Assembly: GCA_002714165.1 (NCBI GenBank)
Contig: PAWT01000048.1
Location: forward strand, 1 to 14,802
Length of the DNA: 14,802 bases
Source of the DNA: Acidobacteriota bacterium
GTDB lineage: Bacteria > Acidobacteriota > Vicinamibacteria > Vicinamibacterales > UBA823
Direction: 5' to 3'
Both the position numbers and the translations under genes were made by a program. Numbering within the stretch: position 1 is the first letter of the stretch; each line of letters begins with the position of its first letter. Positions 1-7,051 of this stretch are shown piece by piece. The notes beneath the pieces are model-generated. The model did not search any database. It worked only from the letters and a program-made list of their open reading frames with translations, and had not been told where the DNA came from.

Positions 1-50
1 GTTGACTTAACGGCACGAACACGGCGGCGGACGTCAAGAAGGGAAGGCAT
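1..50 (-). CDS. atpG: ATP synthase gamma subunit, N-terminal fragment (cut by window edge)
   Basis: Only the first 16 codons are present: an ATG at 48-50 followed by MPSLLDVRRRVRAVKS. This matches the conserved start of F1 gamma subunits, typically MPSL(L/R)DIRRRI.S.K. Gamma is the central rotor shaft that couples proton flow in Fo to catalysis in F1. The start lies three bases beyond the atpA stop, and the order delta-alpha-gamma is the standard F1 order, which supports the call despite the short length. The rest of the gene lies off the left edge. Confidence 0.85.
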   Translation of the reverse strand, partial: MPSLLDVRRRVRAVKS

Positions 51-53
51 CGA

Positions 54-1583
54 TCAAGCTGCCTCAGTTTTCCTATTGGCCACAAAGTCGGCTGTAAACT
101 CTTTGATGGCGGCGGTCAGATCAGTCTTGAGCTGTTCGTCTAACTGTGACTTCTCTCGAATTGCTGCGCAAATAGCACTATGTCGTGTTTCGACAAACCG
201 ATAGAGTTCTCGTTCGAACTTTTGAACATCGGTCACAGCTATATCATCGAGCAACCCAGTGGTGCCAGCAAAGATAATCATTATCTGCTGCTCGACAGCC
301 AGTGGCTCATACTGCGGTTGCTTGAGAAGTTCGACTAGTCGCTGCCCCCGCGAGAGCTGGGTCTGAGTCGCTTTGTCTAGCTCGCTACCAAACTGTGCAA
401 AGGCCGCCAGTTCTCGATACTGCGCGAGGTCGAGCCGAAGAGTGCCGGCCACTTGGCGCATTGCTTTGACTTGCGCCGACCCACCGACTCGCGAAACAGA
501 GTTGCCAACATTGATCGCCGGCCGCACGCCTTGGTGAAACAGATCGCTCTCAAGAAAGATCTGGCCGTCGGTGATTGAGATAACGTTGGTTGGAATATAG
601 GCCGAAAGATCGCCGGCTTGGGTCTCAATGATAGGCAGGGCAGTCAAAGAACCGCCGCCCTGTGTGTCACTCATCTTGGCCGCCCTCTCAAGTAACCGGG
701 AGTGCAGATAGAAAACATCACCCGGGTAGGCTTCACGGCCAGGCGGTCGACGCAGAAGCAACGAGATCTCGCGGTAGGCCTGCGCGTGCTTTGATAAATC
801 ATCATAGATACAGAGGGCGTGTCGTCCGGAATCTCGGAAGTGCTCGCCGATTGAGCATGCTGCGTACGGACTAACAAAAAGCAACGGTGCCGGGTCCGAA
901 GCAGCTGCAGCGACAACGATTGTGTAGGTCATCGCACCCGCGTCTTCAAGGGTCTTAACGACTTGGGCGATTGTGGACTGTTTCTGCCCAATAGCGTTAT
1001 AGATGCAAATAACGCCGGTGTCCTTCTGATTAATGATTGTGTCAACGGCTACAGCAGTTTTACCAGTCTGGCGGTCACCAATAATCAATTCTCGCTGGCC
1101 TCTGCCGATCGGAATCATGGCGTCGATCGCCTTTAGACCAGTTTGCAGTGGCTCACGAACCGGTTGGCGATCGACCACGCCAGGGGCGATTTGTTCGATA
1201 GGCCGGTACTGATTGCTCGTAATCGGCCCTTTGCCATCAATTGGCTGGCCCAGAGCGTTGATAACACGGCCCAACATCTCATCACCTACCGGCACCGAAA
1301 TAATCCGCCCGGTGCGTTTCACGGTGTCGCCCTCGCGGATCTCGGTGTAGTCGCCGAGCAATACAGCACCAACGCTTGATTCTTCGAGGTTAAGCGCGAT
1401 GCCAAAAACTCCGTGAGAAAACTCCAACATTTCACCAGCCATGACGCTTTCAACACCGTGCAGCCTTGCAATGCCGTCGCCGATGGCAATTACGGTGCCG
1501 ACCTCACTCACGTCGACGTTGACCGCGTAGTTCCCTATTTGATCGCGTATTATTTTAGAAATTTCTTCAGCTTTGATATCCAT
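54..1583 (-). CDS. atpA: F1 ATP synthase alpha subunit
   Basis: The 509-residue product has normal length for the alpha subunit, the non-catalytic nucleotide-binding subunit of the F1 hexamer on the cytoplasmic face of the membrane. The Walker A motif GDRQTGKT is at residues 169-176. The alpha/beta signature [10 protein letters not shown] is at 355-364, followed by SRVGG, whose Arg365 aligns with the alpha arginine finger that reaches into the catalytic beta site. The N-terminal barrel (residues about 25-95) and the C-terminal helical domain are complete. The ATG shares one base with the atpH stop (TGATG), which fixes the start and suggests translational coupling. GTGGAA lies a few bases upstream as a weak ribosome-binding site. 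No odd residues were seen. Confidence 0.98.
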
Positions 1584-2137
1584 CAGGTTCCACTCTCTAG
1601 TTGCTCTCTCAGCCGTTCAAGCTGGGTTGCAACACTACCGTCGTAAACGGTACTACTGACCTTTGCCACGACGCCACCGATGATTGATGGGTCGACCCGT
1701 GCATCAATCAACACCTGTTTTCCGGTCACCTCCCCAAGCCGTTGGGCAATCGCGTCGCGCCGATCGGCTGATAGTTTCACCGCTGTCGTGACCTCAGCGC
1801 GTACGATCTGCAACCGGTCTTGCACACGGGCTCGAAAAGCCGAGAGGATTTCCTGGACCAAGTTCATCCGGTCACGTGCAGCCAGTAGATCTAGCAATCT
1901 TGTGACCGCGGCTGACACATTCTTGTTATGCCTTAGAACCGCGGTCACAGCAGCCTGCTTGTGCGAAGACGGCACGGATGGGTTTATGAGCGCCTCCTGC
2001 AACGAGGGGTGGACTTCCAGCAAGGTGACAAACTCCTCTAAATCGTGCTCAGCGGTCGAGGGCTCCTCGTCCTTGTCTCTAACCGTCACCTCAAACAACG
2101 CGCGTGCATAACGTCCTGCGATAACCCGTTCAGTCAT
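1583..2137 (-). CDS. atpH: F1 ATP synthase delta subunit
   Basis: The 184-residue product is a typical OSCP/delta protein, which joins the top of the alpha3beta3 hexamer to the peripheral b stalk. The start [17 protein letters not shown] is the usual N-terminal helix of the six-helix bundle. The C-terminal part holds the family segment with [18 protein letters not shown] and ends QLERLREQL. It lies between the b-subunit genes and atpA, as in standard atp operons, and overlaps atpA by one base. The 42-base gap from the upstream b gene can form two hairpins (separate entry). Delta sequences vary widely, but position and both ends make the call firm. Confidence 0.95.
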
Positions 2138-2155
2138 TTTCTTTCAACAACCTTC

Positions 2156-2189
2156 GGTGCTGGTTTTAGCACCCGGTTATCAACCGGGT
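2156..2189 (-). promoter_or_regulatory. two overlapping hairpins at the atpF-atpH junction
   Basis: In the minus-strand transcript, ACCCGGTT-GAT-AACCGGGT (2189 to 2171) is a perfect 8-bp stem with a 3-base loop that contains the atpF stop codon. Directly after it, GGTGCT-AAAACC-AGCACC (2173 to 2156) is a perfect 6-bp stem. They share bases 2171-2173, so they cannot both form fully. Neither is followed by a U-run, so a terminator is unlikely. A role in mRNA processing or in setting b versus delta expression is inference only. Confidence 0.5.
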
Positions 2190-2911
2190 CGTACTTGGTC
2201 AACGTACCGGTCAACAAGTCTCAGCTGGTCTGCCGCTGACAGATTATCTTGAATCCGCTGCGCCGCCACTCGCGTGGCTAACGCGGCCGCGTGCTGCGTC
2301 AGCTGCTGCTTCGCGACCCGTAACTGGAGGGCCAACTCTCTACGACTTTCCTCGATCAGCCTCTGACGAGCCGCCTCGGTCGACTCTCGCAGCCGTTTCT
2401 CCTCAGCAACAACCTCCTCCTGGCCGCGCACCCGAAGCGTCTCCAGCTCATCAGGAAGGGTTAGTAGCCTCTCCTTAATCGCTTCCAATTGCTGGGCTGC
2501 TTCGGCACTAGTCGCCCGCGCTTGGGCGAGACCCGCACGCACCTGGTCGCTTCGATCACTCAGATAAATGCTGAGAGGTCTCCGAAGTAATACAAATAGG
2601 ATACCCACGAGCACAGCGAAATTAGTAAGCCGTGCGATTGTTTCCAGTAGAGGCGTGTCGTGCTCTTCCTCAGCATGTACTGAGTCGGTTTGTGTTGGTT
2701 GGGAAGCCGCGGCTAAGACGCCGCTACCGCCAGCCCATTGAATCGCCGGCAGAACCACGGCGAAGCTGAGGCAAATGAAGAGAACGGACGACCGACTAAA
2801 ACTCGACCATTCAGAGCTACGAGTGGAGGCAGTGGCAAGCGAATGGCGGATGCGGGTCAACGATCTCCAACTTAACGGGACGCCCGGTGCACCTTCCGCG
2901 CCAGTAGTCAA
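2180..2911 (-). CDS. atpF: F0 ATP synthase b subunit with N-terminal signal-like extension
   Basis: This is the second of two adjacent b-type genes. The 243-residue form is longer than a normal b subunit (about 150-180). Residues 41-59 form a hydrophobic stretch (SSVLFICLSFAVV) followed by a small-residue region (GVLAAASQ) that resembles a signal peptide and cleavage site. A second membrane helix lies at about 93-109 (ARLTNFAVLVGILFVLLR), then a long charged coiled coil rich in A, E, Q and R to the end, as expected for the peripheral stalk. No ATG exists at the N-terminus. The first option is TTG at 2911, overlapping the upstream stop as TTGA. A second TTG at codon 18 follows a GGAG and may be the true start. 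Both starts keep the signal-like segment. Confidence 0.85.
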   Translation of the reverse strand: MTTGAEGAPGVPLSWRSLTRIRHSLATASTRSSEWSSFSRSSVLFICLSFAVVLPAIQWAGGSGVLAAASQPTQTDSVHAEEEHDTPLLETIARLTNFAVLVGILFVLLRRPLSIYLSDRSDQVRAGLAQARATSAEAAQQLEAIKERLLTLPDELETLRVRGQEEVVAEEKRLRESTEAARQRLIEESRRELALQLRVAKQQLTQHAAALATRVAAQRIQDNLSAADQLRLVDRYVDQVRPG

Positions 2912-3339
2912 TTTGACGAAATCTTCCGGCCTAGCACCTGCTCGGCGGCGGCGAGGCCGAGCGCCTCCGCATCGCGCTCGAGTTGGGCGCGAGCTTCAGC
3001 GGTCTGCGTCTTCAGGCTTTCGGTCGCATCAGCGAGGTTCGACTCGGCATCCCGTTGCGTTTCATCGAGGATTTCAGCGCGACGAGCCAGTAACTCTCGG
3101 CGGTTCTCCTCCATCTGTTGGTAAATCTCTGCACGCGCAGCCGCTGTCTTCGTTTCGAACTCTGCTGTCGCTTCAGCGGCTTTTCTTGCCGCTGACTCGG
3201 CCAGCTCAAGCGCTGACCGAATGGCACGCTCACGCGTTTCCATCACCTCGGTAAGTGGTGCAATTAAAAAACGCTTGAGGGTCCATGCCAGTAACAACAC
3301 CAACCCAATTACCCAGAGGACCGTCAGGTCTGGAATCAA
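2908..3339 (-). CDS. F0 ATP synthase b/b' subunit, first gene of the atp cluster
   Basis: The 143-residue product begins MIPDLTVLWVIGLVLLLAW, a single membrane helix (about residues 5-22) followed by RFLIAPLTEVMETRE and a long charged coiled coil. This is the plain b/b' layout of the peripheral stalk that holds F1 against rotation. The start is TTG at 3337-3339, preceded by GGGAG six bases upstream, the clearest ribosome-binding site in the atp cluster, and there is no ATG alternative near the N-terminus. It overlaps the next b gene by four bases. Two different b genes usually mean a b-b' heterodimer, as in cyanobacteria and several other phyla. Which of the two to call b' is uncertain, so no symbol is given. 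Confidence 0.9.
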   Translation of the reverse strand: MIPDLTVLWVIGLVLLLAWTLKRFLIAPLTEVMETRERAIRSALELAESAARKAAEATAEFETKTAAARAEIYQQMEENRRELLARRAEILDETQRDAESNLADATESLKTQTAEARAQLERDAEALGLAAAEQVLGRKISSN

Positions 3340-3402
3340 AGAGAACTCCCGCTTGGTAGAGCGACGACCCAGAAGGGTTTCGAACGCCCGTGCAGAACAC
3401 CG

Positions 3403-3431
3403 ATTTTAGCATCTGCACTGCACGACGACAA
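3403..3431 (-). promoter_or_regulatory. predicted sigma70-type promoter of the atp cluster
   Basis: Minus strand: TTGTCG (-35, 3426-3431), a 17-base spacer, then TAAAAT (-10, 3403-3408) with an extended TG one base before it (TGCTAAAAT). It lies just after the selD stop and 63 bases before the TTG start of the first b gene. Spacing and extended -10 are good. This is a sequence match only. Confidence 0.55.
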
Positions 3432-3464
3432 GAGCGGCCAGGCTAAAACTTGTGTTCGTAAAGC

Positions 3465-4520
3465 CTACCCCACGTAAACCCTAGAGCCAGATTCCACGAA
3501 CGACTCAACTGTGCCAATCTTGACTGCCTGGCTACCAGCTGCCGCTAATGCACTCATCGCTCGGTCCACCGCAGTGGCCGCCACTGCGACCAGCAACCCT
3601 CCAGATGTTTGGGGATCGTAGAGCAAGGTTGCAATCTCTCCAACTAGCCCCGCTTCGAACCTCGTCCGCTGGCCGAAGTGCTCCGCGTTGGTGTCGCCCC
3701 CGCCAGTTCGATTCTGTCGCACCAGAGCAGATGCCCCCTCAAGTAATGGAACCGCTGCTGATTCAATCCGAAAGGCAACGCTTGAAGCCGAGGCCATCTC
3801 ACAGGCATGACCCACTAGACCGAAACCAGTAACGTCGGTGCAGGCATGGACTTCATCCCGGCCCAAGGTGCATAGCGCATCAGCGGAGGCGCGGTTGAGT
3901 GTCGTCATCGACTCGATAGCCGCCGTTTCGATATTCTCTGCGGCACGCCTTTTCTTGATCGCGGTTGCAATAATCCCGGTGCCTATCGGCTTGGTTAGCA
4001 ACAACTTGTCTCCAACCTGTGCCCCCGCGTTTGACAGCACCCGGCCTGGGTCTACACGGCCGGTTACGGCATACCCGAATTTGACCTCGGCATCCTGCAC
4101 TGTGTGTCCCCCGATAAGGGCTACTCCGGCTTCGCTCAGTTTGCTCAATCCTCCCTCGAAGATCGCCTTCACCACAGTTAGGTCGAACCCCTGGCTCGGA
4201 AAACCCGCAATAGCCATTGCTGTGAGTGGTTTCCCGCCCATAGCGTAAATATCGCTCAAGGAGTTCGCTGCAGCGATTTGTCCATAGGCGAAAGGGTCGT
4301 CCACGATTGGCGTGAGGAAATCAACGGATTGGACTAGCGCTGAACTGGTATCCCACAGGTAGACACCCGCGTCGTCGGAAGTGCGGAAATCGACCAGCAC
4401 CCGTTCGTTTTCCAACGAAGGTAAATCGCCCAGGACCTGAGCGAGCTCGCCGGCGGCGAGCTTACTCGCTCAACCCGCGCAACTGGAGTAGTCGGTCAGT
4501 CGTCGTTTGGTCCAACGCAT
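3465..4520 (-). CDS. selD: selenide, water dikinase SelD, selenocysteine-containing (UGA at 4470-4472 = Sec17)
   Basis: SelD makes selenophosphate from selenide and ATP, the selenium donor for selenocysteine and 2-selenouridine. A simple ORF reading starts at 4415 and lacks the catalytic N-terminus. Reading the in-frame UGA as Sec gives 351 residues from ATG 4518-4520. The N-terminal part RLTDYSSCAGUASKL aligns gap-free with E. coli RLTQYSHGAGCGCKI, placing Sec17 and Lys20 on Cys17 and Lys20. Further motifs: DDAGVY at 49-54, GGHTVQDAEVKFGY from 137, TKPIGTG at 176-182, TDVTGFGLVGH at 228-238 and DPQTSGGLL at 302-310. Cys14 and Sec17 form a CxxU pair. A GTG at 4574, overlapping the parB stop as GTGA, would add 18 residues and is a possible alternative start; neither start has a clear ribosome-binding site. 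The gene follows parB directly. Confidence 0.92.
4438..4472 (-). promoter_or_regulatory. predicted bacterial SECIS element in selD
   Basis: The UGA opens the hairpin. The outer stem TGAGCGAG/CTCGCTCA is a perfect 8 bp. A 4-base bulge UAAG lies on the 5' side only, then the inner stem CTCGCC/GGCGAG is a perfect 6 bp with loop GCC. The apical loop starts 15 bases after the UGA, with a G at its first position, matching the general bacterial SECIS pattern (SelB-binding hairpin just 3' of UGA, G near the start of the loop). The same bases encode Sec17 to Gln28 of SelD. Confidence 0.8.
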
Positions 4521-4570
4521 GTCTAGTTCACTGATACTACAGCCCTCTTCCACGGTGACCCAGAATTCGT

Positions 4571-5419
4571 TCACCGCACTGTCAATTGCTCGTAGATTCG
4601 TTGTAGCTCTTCCTCCGAACTGAAGTCGATCTCAATCCGCCCTCCCTTCCGTTTTCGGATGACACGTACCCGTGTACCTAGGGCGAATCGGAGCTGCTCC
4701 TCGGCCGCACGGATATGTACGTCGGCCGCCTCCGGCCTACCTGCTTTGATCCCTTGTCCTGTGAGCTTACGGATGAACGCCTCGGTTTCTCGAACCGACA
4801 GTCGCCGCCTCATTACCTCACGGGCCGCTCGCCGTTGAGCCGACTCGCCTGGCACGCCCAACAGCGCACGGGCATGGCCAACGGTCAGACCACCAGACAT
4901 AAGGTTGGCCTTAATTTCCTCTGGCAACTTCAATAGACGTAGAGCATTTGCGATGGTCGAACGATCTTTCCCAATCGCACTAGCAATCGCGTCGTGTGTC
5001 AGCTGATGCTGTTCTACCAGACGCTGGTAAGCAACGGCTTCCTCAATAGGATTCAGGTCTTCACGCTGTAAATTCTCGATGAGTGCGAGTGGCAATAATT
5101 GGTCGTTTGTTACCTCGCGGACAACGATAGGCACACGCAACAAACCCGCCCGTTGCGCGGCACGCCACCGCCGCTCCCCCGCGACGATTTCGTACCTATC
5201 CTCAACTTTTCGCACGACGAGCGGTTGAATAACACCGTTGGCTCGGATCGACTGTGCCAGCTCATCCAGTTTCGCCCCGTCTACCTCCGTCCGTGGTTGG
5301 TCGGGGTTCGGAACGAGTTGATCGATGTCAATTTCGTTGAGCGCAACTTTGGGAGTTGGCAACGCGTCAGGAATAAGTGCGCTCAGTCCCCGGCCGAGCG
5401 CTGGGCGCTTTTCAGTCAT
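4571..5419 (-). CDS. parB: chromosome-partitioning protein ParB (Spo0J-like CTPase)
   Basis: The 282-residue protein binds parS, loads as a CTP-dependent clamp and spreads around the origin. The N-terminal RPALGRGLSALIP is the usual ParA-contact region. The CTP-binding motif GERRWR is at 81-86 and the second box ENLQREDLNPIEEA at 115-128. A helix-turn-helix lies at about 139-165 (LTHDAIASAIGKDRSTIANAL), and a C-terminal dimerisation domain ends at LTVR. Length is normal for the family. The ATG overlaps the end of parA by eight bases, so the two are probably co-translated. Its targets, two perfect parS sites, lie just upstream of parA. The gene is followed at once by selD. Confidence 0.97.
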   Translation of the reverse strand: MTEKRPALGRGLSALIPDALPTPKVALNEIDIDQLVPNPDQPRTEVDGAKLDELAQSIRANGVIQPLVVRKVEDRYEIVAGERRWRAAQRAGLLRVPIVVREVTNDQLLPLALIENLQREDLNPIEEAVAYQRLVEQHQLTHDAIASAIGKDRSTIANALRLLKLPEEIKANLMSGGLTVGHARALLGVPGESAQRRAAREVMRRRLSVRETEAFIRKLTGQGIKAGRPEAADVHIRAAEEQLRFALGTRVRVIRKRKGGRIEIDFSSEEELQRIYEQLTVR

Positions 5420-6212
5420 ACTTCTCTCTCAGAATAATCGAGTCCTTGTTGAGAATTTCTTTGGCAAGGGAAACATAAGCCTTCGCGCCGCGTGATTTCT
5501 TGTCGTAGAGAATAGCCGGTAGTCCGTGGCTTGGCGCCTCACCCAACCGTACGTTCCTGGGTATAACCGTATCGAACACTTTCGCTTTAAAGAATTCCCT
5601 GATTTCACGTGAGACCTGTTGTGAGAGATTGGTGCGACCGTCGTGCATCGTCAGTAAGACGCCTTCGATATCAAGACCAGGGTTGAGCGAAGCACGGACA
5701 CGCTGCAGGGTCGAGACCAACTCGGCTAAGCCCTCCAAGGCGAAGTACTCGCTGAGCATAGGAATTAAAACGGTGTCCGCAGCAACAAGACCGTTGAGGG
5801 TTAGAAGGCCCAGGGACGGCGGGGTGTCGATAAAAACGTAATCGTACTGACCGACGAGTTGTTTTACCAGCGAGCGGAGTCGCTTTTCGCGATTTTCGAG
5901 CGAGACCATTTCGAGCTCTGCCCCGGTCAGGTTGCGCTCTGCCGGCACCACAGATAGGCCGCGCACGGTGGTCTGCAGCACAAATCCCGAAAAGTCAGGA
6001 ATCGTTTTGGCTGTGAGAGCTTCGTAAACAGTGCCTTGACTACTGGACTGTCCTTTGAGCCCAATCCCGCTTGTTAAATTAGCTTGAGGATCGACGTCGA
6101 CAGCTAACACGCGGCGCTCCGCAAGCGCCAAAGAGGCAGCCAGATTGATTGCGGTTGTGGTCTTGCCAACCCCGCCCTTCTGATTAGCAACAGCAATGAC
6201 CCTAGCAGCCAT
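5412..6212 (-). CDS. parA: chromosome-partitioning ATPase ParA (Soj-like)
   Basis: The 266-residue protein is the small ParA type without an N-terminal DNA-binding domain, as in chromosomal Soj systems. The deviant Walker A motif KGGVGKTT, with its signature lysine Lys12, is at 12-19. The A' box DVDPQANLTSG starts at 39 and the Walker B segment YVFIDTPPSLG lies near 125-135. ParA binds DNA nonspecifically as an ATP dimer, and ParB stimulates hydrolysis to move the origin. The ATG at 6210-6212 has a reasonable promoter upstream and no better start nearby. The gene forms an operon with parB. Confidence 0.97.
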   Translation of the reverse strand: MAARVIAVANQKGGVGKTTTAINLAASLALAERRVLAVDVDPQANLTSGIGLKGQSSSQGTVYEALTAKTIPDFSGFVLQTTVRGLSVVPAERNLTGAELEMVSLENREKRLRSLVKQLVGQYDYVFIDTPPSLGLLTLNGLVAADTVLIPMLSEYFALEGLAELVSTLQRVRASLNPGLDIEGVLLTMHDGRTNLSQQVSREIREFFKAKVFDTVIPRNVRLGEAPSHGLPAILYDKKSRGAKAYVSLAKEILNKDSIILREKYD

Positions 6213-6271
6213 GAAACTTAACCGTTGGTATAAATTATGTTAAATGACCTATAATATAAAACTTCTAGGTT

Positions 6272-6300
6272 AGGATACGTCCAGAGTCTTGCTTGGTCAA
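6272..6300 (-). promoter_or_regulatory. predicted promoter of parAB
   Basis: Minus strand: TTGACC (6295-6300), 17-base spacer, TATCCT (6272-6277). The -35 lies two bases from the parS site at 6303-6318, so ParB bound there would meet RNA polymerase and could repress its own operon (inference). The leader to the parA ATG is AT-rich (6213-6265) and contains TATATTAT, a possible second -10. Confidence 0.5.
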
Positions 6301-6302
6301 GC

Positions 6303-6318
6303 TGTTTCACGTGAAACA
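6303..6318. promoter_or_regulatory. parS site 1 (ParB-binding centromere)
   Basis: TGTTTCACGTGAAACA is a perfect 16-bp palindrome identical to the canonical bacterial parS consensus. It lies in the rsmG-parA intergenic region, two bases upstream of the predicted parA -35. Confidence 0.95.
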
Positions 6319-6350
6319 ATCGTCTTTAAGACTTCTACTTTCACTAACCA

Positions 6351-6366
6351 TGTTTCACGTGAAACA
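6351..6366. promoter_or_regulatory. parS site 2 (ParB-binding centromere)
   Basis: This is a second identical copy of TGTTTCACGTGAAACA, 48 bp from the first start to start, between site 1 and the rsmG stop. The flanking GC/AT bases of the two copies are arranged as mirror images (GC before site 1, GC after site 2). Confidence 0.95.
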
Positions 6367-6388
6367 GCTTGCGCTGGATATTCGTCAG

Positions 6389-7051
6389 CTATCTTGAAAC
6401 TTTTTCCTTCTGAAGCACAACTAATCGACTTCCAAGTGATTCAACGAGTTGAACAGTTTCCATCAAAACAAGTGGAGGGCTGAGCGACCTTGACTCTTTC
6501 GTTTTGCCGCTGCTTTCAAACAGAAGCATCTTTCCCTCATATTGCAAGAAACTCTGAAGCCTGTTAAGTGAGGCGCTGTCTACACTGACAGCCCTTACGC
6601 TCACAAAGGCCATCGATTCGAGTAAGTCGTTACGAAGTAGTAAATCCTCCCAACGAGCCGTTTCAACCGTTGAATCCTGTAGGTCAAGGGTCCTCAAGGC
6701 CTCCCGAAGAAAGGCTGATTTCCTTGTTTTTGATTCAACCATTGTAAGGTGGAGATTTGGCCTAAATAGCTTGATTGGGATGGCTGGGGAACCGTTACCT
6801 GAACCTATATCGAGGAGGCTCAGCTCGCCACCTGGGATTACTTTCGCCGCAATTAAAGGCTCGATGATCAATCTTTTCAGCAACGAGTCAGTGTCGACGC
6901 TGGAGGTTAGGTTGACCGTTGAGTTCCAGCGGGCTAAGAGAGCCAGGTAGGCCCTCAGATTTTCAGCCTGTTCACCGTTGAGCTGAAGCCCTGATTGAGC
7001 GGCGAGGCGCTCGAGCCTTAGGATCGTGTCCTTTGCGCTCATGGCCAGCAT
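6389..7051 (-). CDS. rsmG: 16S rRNA (guanine-N7) methyltransferase RsmG/GidB
   Basis: RsmG methylates N7 of G527 in 16S rRNA with S-adenosylmethionine. The 220-residue length is usual. The SAM-binding loop is [17 protein letters not shown] at 79-95, followed by [14 protein letters not shown] from about 105, both family landmarks. The glycine loop is somewhat divergent (usually GSGAGFPGIP). The ATG at 7051 gives MLAMSAKD and a second in-frame ATG lies at 7042; neither has a clear ribosome-binding site. Either start overlaps the end of mnmG by 70-80 bases, which suggests coupling to mnmG translation. The mnmG-rsmG-parA order is the classic one near bacterial origins. Confidence 0.94.

Follow-up and report, generated by a model that had tools for sequence, protein, structure and literature searches.

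The question raised by this locus is how the UGA at codon 17 of selD is read, as a stop, as an error of the record or as selenocysteine (Sec). The window, that is, the whole stretch of 14,802 nucleotides that was analysed, represents the entire contig C48 of a 2.04-Mb MAG (85.85% complete, 4.04% contamination). According to these data the selD of the window is almost certainly a selenoprotein gene, in which UGA17 would be read as Sec at the enzyme's own active site. Sec-containing SelD is a long-known selenoprotein family (PMC1794560, PMC13188914); in 2006 SelD was counted as one of 25 bacterial selenoprotein families, represented by 38 sequences (PMC1794560), and among 223 prokaryotic reference genomes Sec is encoded by 19% of the SelD genes, at one invariable position (PMC4561486). 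The sequence-only reading of this DNA also spoke of Sec-SelD as known from other bacteria, and the biology of an enzyme that is required for making itself is thus not new. Among the papers listed in the literature searches none has a title on Sec-SelD in the class Vicinamibacteria, a title-level result that does not prove absence.

The selD frame runs from an ATG (4520-4518) through a TGA at codon 17 (4470-4472) and an internal TTG (4415) to the stop at 3465-3467, and the product has 351 aa when the TGA is read through versus 316 aa when it is counted from TTG 4415. Thus the proposal that the same frame continues upstream of the TTG, through one UGA, to ATG 4520 was confirmed, and the 316-aa ORF is, by its sequence, a truncated remnant of selD. 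The start at ATG 4520 is backed by the block MRWTKRRLT, which begins at the same Met in UBA823 and UBA2161. An alternative start is offered in the window sequence by an in-frame GTG at 4553, 11 codons upstream of this ATG, while in UBA823 the frame is interrupted by a TGA seven residues ahead of the Met, which counts against a start of this type. The gene order mnmG-rsmG-parA-parB-selD-atp, in which the names of the selD neighbours were read from translations, is common to the window, UBA823 (L009) and UBA2161 (L010). The features are collected in the Table.

Table. Features of the selD locus in the window
Feature	Position	Strand	Description	Basis
selD	3465..4520	minus	351 aa, predicted Sec at residue 17, ATG start, TAG stop	frame, profile and structure alignment
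Putative Sec17 codon	4470..4472	minus	in-frame UGA (TGA)	on the Cys column of solved SelD
Truncated standard-code ORF	3465..4415	minus	316 aa, internal TTG start	ORF list
parB	4571..5419	minus	adjoins selD upstream	named from its translation
ATP synthase b-type subunit gene	2908..3339	minus	adjoins selD downstream	named from its translation
H1 hairpin	4445..4461	minus	between UGA and H2, 3-nt loop at 4452-4454	pair counts
H2, proposed SECIS hairpin	4426..4444	minus	8 pairs, apical loop GUC at 4434-4436	covariation

The membership of the product in the SelD family follows from a profile match over the cut-off along the whole protein and from the position of UGA on the catalytic Cys17 column with Lys20 kept. 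With the NCBIfam selD profile TIGR00476 (cut-off 125) the 351-aa form scored 350.8 bits over profile positions 1-309 of 311, while the 316-aa form scored 320.5 bits and entered the profile at position 35; with PRK00943 the score rose from 288.0 bits for the 316-aa form to 312.1 bits for the 351-aa form, crossing the cut-off of 299. In the alignment to the solved SelD 3u0o_A, which we take to be the SelD-Cys protein of E. coli, residues 6-31 are gap-free, residue 17 falls on the first Cys of the GCGCK motif and Lys20 falls on its Lys, so that the earlier placement of Sec17 on the catalytic column, with a gap-free N-terminus and Lys20, is borne out by both profile scores and structure alignment. 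The two proteins share the family, the catalytic position 17 and Lys20; they differ in that 3u0o has Cys17 and Cys19 in its GCGCK motif, whereas the window SelD has Sec17, Ser19 and Cys14. An alignment with Cys- or Sec-carrying homologues likewise agreed with the expectation of the sequence-only reading: the column is Cys or Sec in relatives, with 53 Sec and 55 Cys loci among the 108 of 109 that were parsed (L088 being unparsed, and L009 and L010 being counted twice as the same records as L105 and L107). Outside the class, U or C stands at the same column in relatives from several phyla, as seen in the 34 loci displayed out of 80. A real stop at UGA17, with the gene decayed or only the 316-aa form made from TTG 4415, would agree with the open 316-aa frame that the standard code leaves and with the fact that UGA ends most genes; but the 316-aa form is devoid of residue 17 and Lys20, conservation across the class covers the UGA itself, the codons that precede it and the hairpin that follows, and the MAG carries the Sec machinery, which makes this reading very improbable.

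The sequence-only reading had named a sequence error at 4470-4472 as a refutation of the Sec assignment. For a sequencing or assembly error no supporting point was found, while a second selD copy at the end of contig C21 of the same MAG has the same TGA, and the same codon occurs in 95 other same-class genomes. The alignment of window positions 1-6478 with positions 1311-7788 of L130, the end of C21, is gap-free with 97.5% identity. Because the TGA recurs in this contig end and in these genomes, an error is next to impossible. Two copies were also seen of a formate dehydrogenase-like gene (C27 and C38), and this doubling together with that of the window region indicates two strains in one bin. 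Since the MAG holds two strains, the sel genes described below need not come from the same cell as contig C48.

The Sec machinery that the sequence-only reading required in the organism, namely selA, selB and selC, is found in the same MAG with all three genes over their cut-offs: tRNA-Sec (selC) scored 62.1 bits and was given the anticodon TCA (UCA) by ARAGORN, selB scored 335.3 bits in an open frame of 659 aa, and selA scored 547.8 bits in a 476-aa frame. Each of them lies on a contig other than C48, and the Rfam and ARAGORN scans of the window itself gave no matches. The selU/mnmH gene was not found by search of the MAG, which is 85.85% complete. Further, the search for other genes with Sec UGA codons, also proposed from the sequence, covered the Fdh-alpha and AhpC-TSA families, so the list is partial, and yielded four more genes whose family match contains one TGA. 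Two are formate dehydrogenase-like genes with 599.7 bits (C45) and 184.8 bits (C27), neither of which reaches the Fdh-alpha cut-off (666.25). The other two are AhpC-TSA genes on C38 with 92.1 and 89 bits over a cut-off of 26, one for a peroxiredoxin with the motif TGGU and the other for a peroxiredoxin-like protein with the motif UPWC. By motif reading the TGA codons of these four genes presumably occupy the Sec/Cys (active) sites of their families. A general reassignment of UGA, by which codon 17 would be read as something other than Sec, is hardly credible, since the other TGAs seen are at apparent Sec/Cys sites, the remaining own-genome matches in the selB, selA, Fdh-alpha and AhpC-TSA searches have no internal stops, relatives have either Cys or Sec at the SelD column, and the MAG carries tRNA-Sec, selA and selB. 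Although the MAG is a mixture of two strains, both Sec-SelD and tRNA-Sec occur in each of the four other genomes of the genus. In one genome of this genus a second SelD with Cys (L215, G153:C10) was observed, 42% identical and with the GCGCK motif, which is possibly contamination or a transferred gene.

Across the class Vicinamibacteria a match to the SelD query, in some cases weak, was obtained in 179 of 193 genomes, and at least 96 of the 193 have a match with a single in-frame TGA. In 97 of 97 sequences (96 genomes and the second own copy) this TGA occupies the Sec position of the SelD motif, a count which shows the place of the TGA and not its frequency, because the sequences were chosen for having one TGA. 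Of these 96 genomes 81 have a tRNA-Sec gene over the cut-off, versus 56 of the 97 others (odds ratio 4.0, p = 6e-5), and the co-occurrence of Sec-SelD and tRNA-Sec across the class is only moderate. The 56 tRNA-Sec genomes outside the 96 include seven with Cys-SelD and three (G048, G081 and G164) with tRNA-Sec over the cut-off and no SelD match, which are probably incomplete assemblies or carry a divergent SelD. The reverse case is formed by 15 genomes with a one-TGA SelD and no tRNA-Sec in the strict scan. On re-check selB was over the cut-off in 13 of these 15, the exceptions being G118 and G156, and a finer scan placed tRNA-Sec over the cut-off in 6 of 15, with the best at 51.8 bits and some of them perhaps other tRNAs. 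According to these counts a retention of Sec-SelD by genomes devoid of the Sec machinery was rejected, and the missing tRNA-Sec in the 15 genomes is taken as incompleteness or filter loss.

The recoding signal is newly proposed here, as the sequence-only reading named none. The folding energy of the isolated segment was tried as evidence for a SECIS and is not significant (z = -1.60; 14 of 200 shuffles fold as well); because it was unremarkable, covariation and synonymous variation were examined. In the analysis below positions are counted from the first base of UGA17, and the pair counts exclude L202, whose register is lost through a gap downstream of UGA. Among 1128 column pairs (columns 4-54; 84 distinct 54-mers from 96 sequences) covariation is strongest for 33-43, with U-A in 52, C-G in 22, G-C in 7, U-G in 2 and a mismatch in 1, so that 83 of 84 retain the pairing. 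Base 33 stands at the third position of codon 27 and is silent in the 78 of 84 sequences where this codon is Ala; base 43 stands at the first position of codon 31, which codes mostly for Ser or Gly. No protein-level cause of the covariation was seen in these codons. The pair types differ within 9 of 14 families, and because in 8 of 14 they differ on both sides, with U-A and U-G held within the single family f1, the change probably arose repeatedly, unless gene transfer was involved.

This pair belongs to the hairpin H2, which lies 26-44 nt after UGA, with its arms at 29-36 and 40-47 and its loop 33 nt from UGA. The number of sequences that form each of its eight pairs ranges from 68 of 83 up to 84 of 84, and the loop starts with GU in 94 of 96. 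At least 6 of the 7 inner pairs are found in 78 of 84 distinct Sec sequences versus 0 of 10 same-class SelD sequences with Cys, which served as controls; when all eight pairs are counted, the best Cys sequence reaches 6. In the set of 80 related loci, with L009 and L010 left out, at least 6 of 7 H2 pairs occur at the same positions in 8 of 23 Sec loci versus 3 of 55 Cys loci, and the 15 remaining Sec loci may have their hairpin elsewhere. Synonymous entropy, calculated for 26 same-class genes with the near-identical L101, L102, L103 and L130 and the unparsed L123 left out, is 0.55 bits at codons 18-29 (12 columns) versus 1.21 bits after codon 34 (143 columns; Mann-Whitney p = 1e-4); synonymous variation is lowest at about codons 14-30, and the nine 12-codon windows with the lowest values begin, without exception, at codons 14-24. 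The bSECIS model has a loop of 3-9 nt, an upper stem of 4-16 bp, a G in the first two loop positions and a spacing of 16-37 nt (PMC13188914). With the energy term left aside, H2 falls within this model in loop, G position, stem and spacing, as it has a 3-nt apical loop (GUC) starting with G and then U, 8 pairs and 33 nt. The window differs from the consensus in a second conserved hairpin, H1, which is located between UGA and the proposed SECIS and abuts the latter.

H1 occupies positions 12-28, where the six inner pairs are each formed in 69-83 of 84 sequences and the outermost pair 12-28 in 38 of 84. Its pair 17-23 is C-G in 64 and G-C in 17 of 84, a switch which may represent few events, because it is tied to a change of the protein block (AAGE to GPAE and the like). 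A different architecture would be a single long hairpin instead of H1 and H2, which sequesters the UGA by pairing UGAGCGA with UCGCUCA. For the isolated 52-nt window RNA this form has the lowest predicted energy (-24.1 kcal/mol), and in the 54-nt segment the UGA-sequestering form is nearly as stable as the H1 + H2 tandem (-22.6 versus -23.5 kcal/mol); but 30 of 84 distinct sequences lack its outer pair 3-33, while 83 of 84 retain pair 33-43 of H2, which competes with it, and once the first 6 nt of the segment are removed, as if they lay inside a ribosome, the tandem is predicted. As a conserved element the long hairpin is thus unsupported by the pair counts, and as the recoding signal it is quite unlikely. 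Since the outer stem 3-33 is broken in these 30 sequences, H2 is taken as the putative SECIS for UGA17, and H1 is regarded as its probable helper. The 5' arm of the SECIS is able to pair onto the last base of UGA (3-33) in 54 of 84 distinct sequences. A speculative combination of the two folds, which we consider unlikely, is that the selD signal of the class is a tandem of abutting hairpins, in which the fold that sequesters UGA would be opened by a ribosome reaching this codon, so that the SECIS is set free. If such a switch is true, display of the SECIS would be coupled to the ribosome, and SelD would perhaps tune its own synthesis to selenium supply.

In the proposed mechanism the ribosome at UGA17 would be met by SelB carrying Sec-tRNA-Sec and recruited through binding to the hairpin with the GU loop 33 nt downstream of UGA17. 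Sec would be inserted at the catalytic position, where it may act in catalysis, and translation would run on to the 351-aa SelD. This enzyme is expected to make the selenophosphate used by SelA to make Sec-tRNA-Sec, and therefore SelD would be needed for its own synthesis.

The sequence-only reading also described Cys14 and Sec17 as a redox-like CxxU pair replacing the E. coli motif. Cys14 and the UGA codon are both there; a tie of the pair to Sec did not hold, since the Cys at -3 is also present in 7 of 10 same-class Cys-SelD sequences. It occurs in 35 of the 53 Sec loci parsed, and 17 of 53 have neither this Cys nor one at +2. As a Sec-specific redox pair CxxU is thus unsupported, and it looks like a trait of the clade rather than of Sec. 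A second Cys at +2 was observed in 51 of 55 Cys-SelD versus 1 of 53 Sec-SelD loci, a difference confounded by taxonomy. In comparison with prokaryotic Sec-SelD/SPS2, the window SelD belongs to the same family (TIGR00476) with Sec at the one known position, and it differs in clade-level residues only, namely the Cys at -3 and no Cys at +2.

Misannotation is described as the usual fate of selenoprotein genes (PMC4561486). The window selD provides a clean case of a truncated gene model, which recurs among the database relatives listed, all shorter than the full protein: the earlier suggestion that this gene would be annotated in truncated form is supported by 120 of 7610 database relatives listed, which are 297-327 aa long versus 351. 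The well-supported covarying SECIS proposed here could be used by annotation tools.

In one genus of the class six genomes (G100-G104 and G106; L206-L211) have a Cys-SelD that is 52-54% identical and keep tRNA-Sec, which can be due to either gene replacement or a Sec-to-Cys change. In G102 of this genus an extra SelD match containing TGA (L205) lies beside the Cys-SelD, and in G100 two tRNA-Sec matches are over the cut-off, with 63.7 and 52.9 bits. Fusions of NADH-dehydrogenase-like proteins with SelD are reported as SelD-Cys (PMC4561486). Families f14, f18 and f19 contain long open frames (about 750-1770 aa) with a SelD-like match, and tRNA-Sec is found in many of these genomes. These long frames fit the expectation for such fusions, and, unlike the window selD, they have no TGA in the match.
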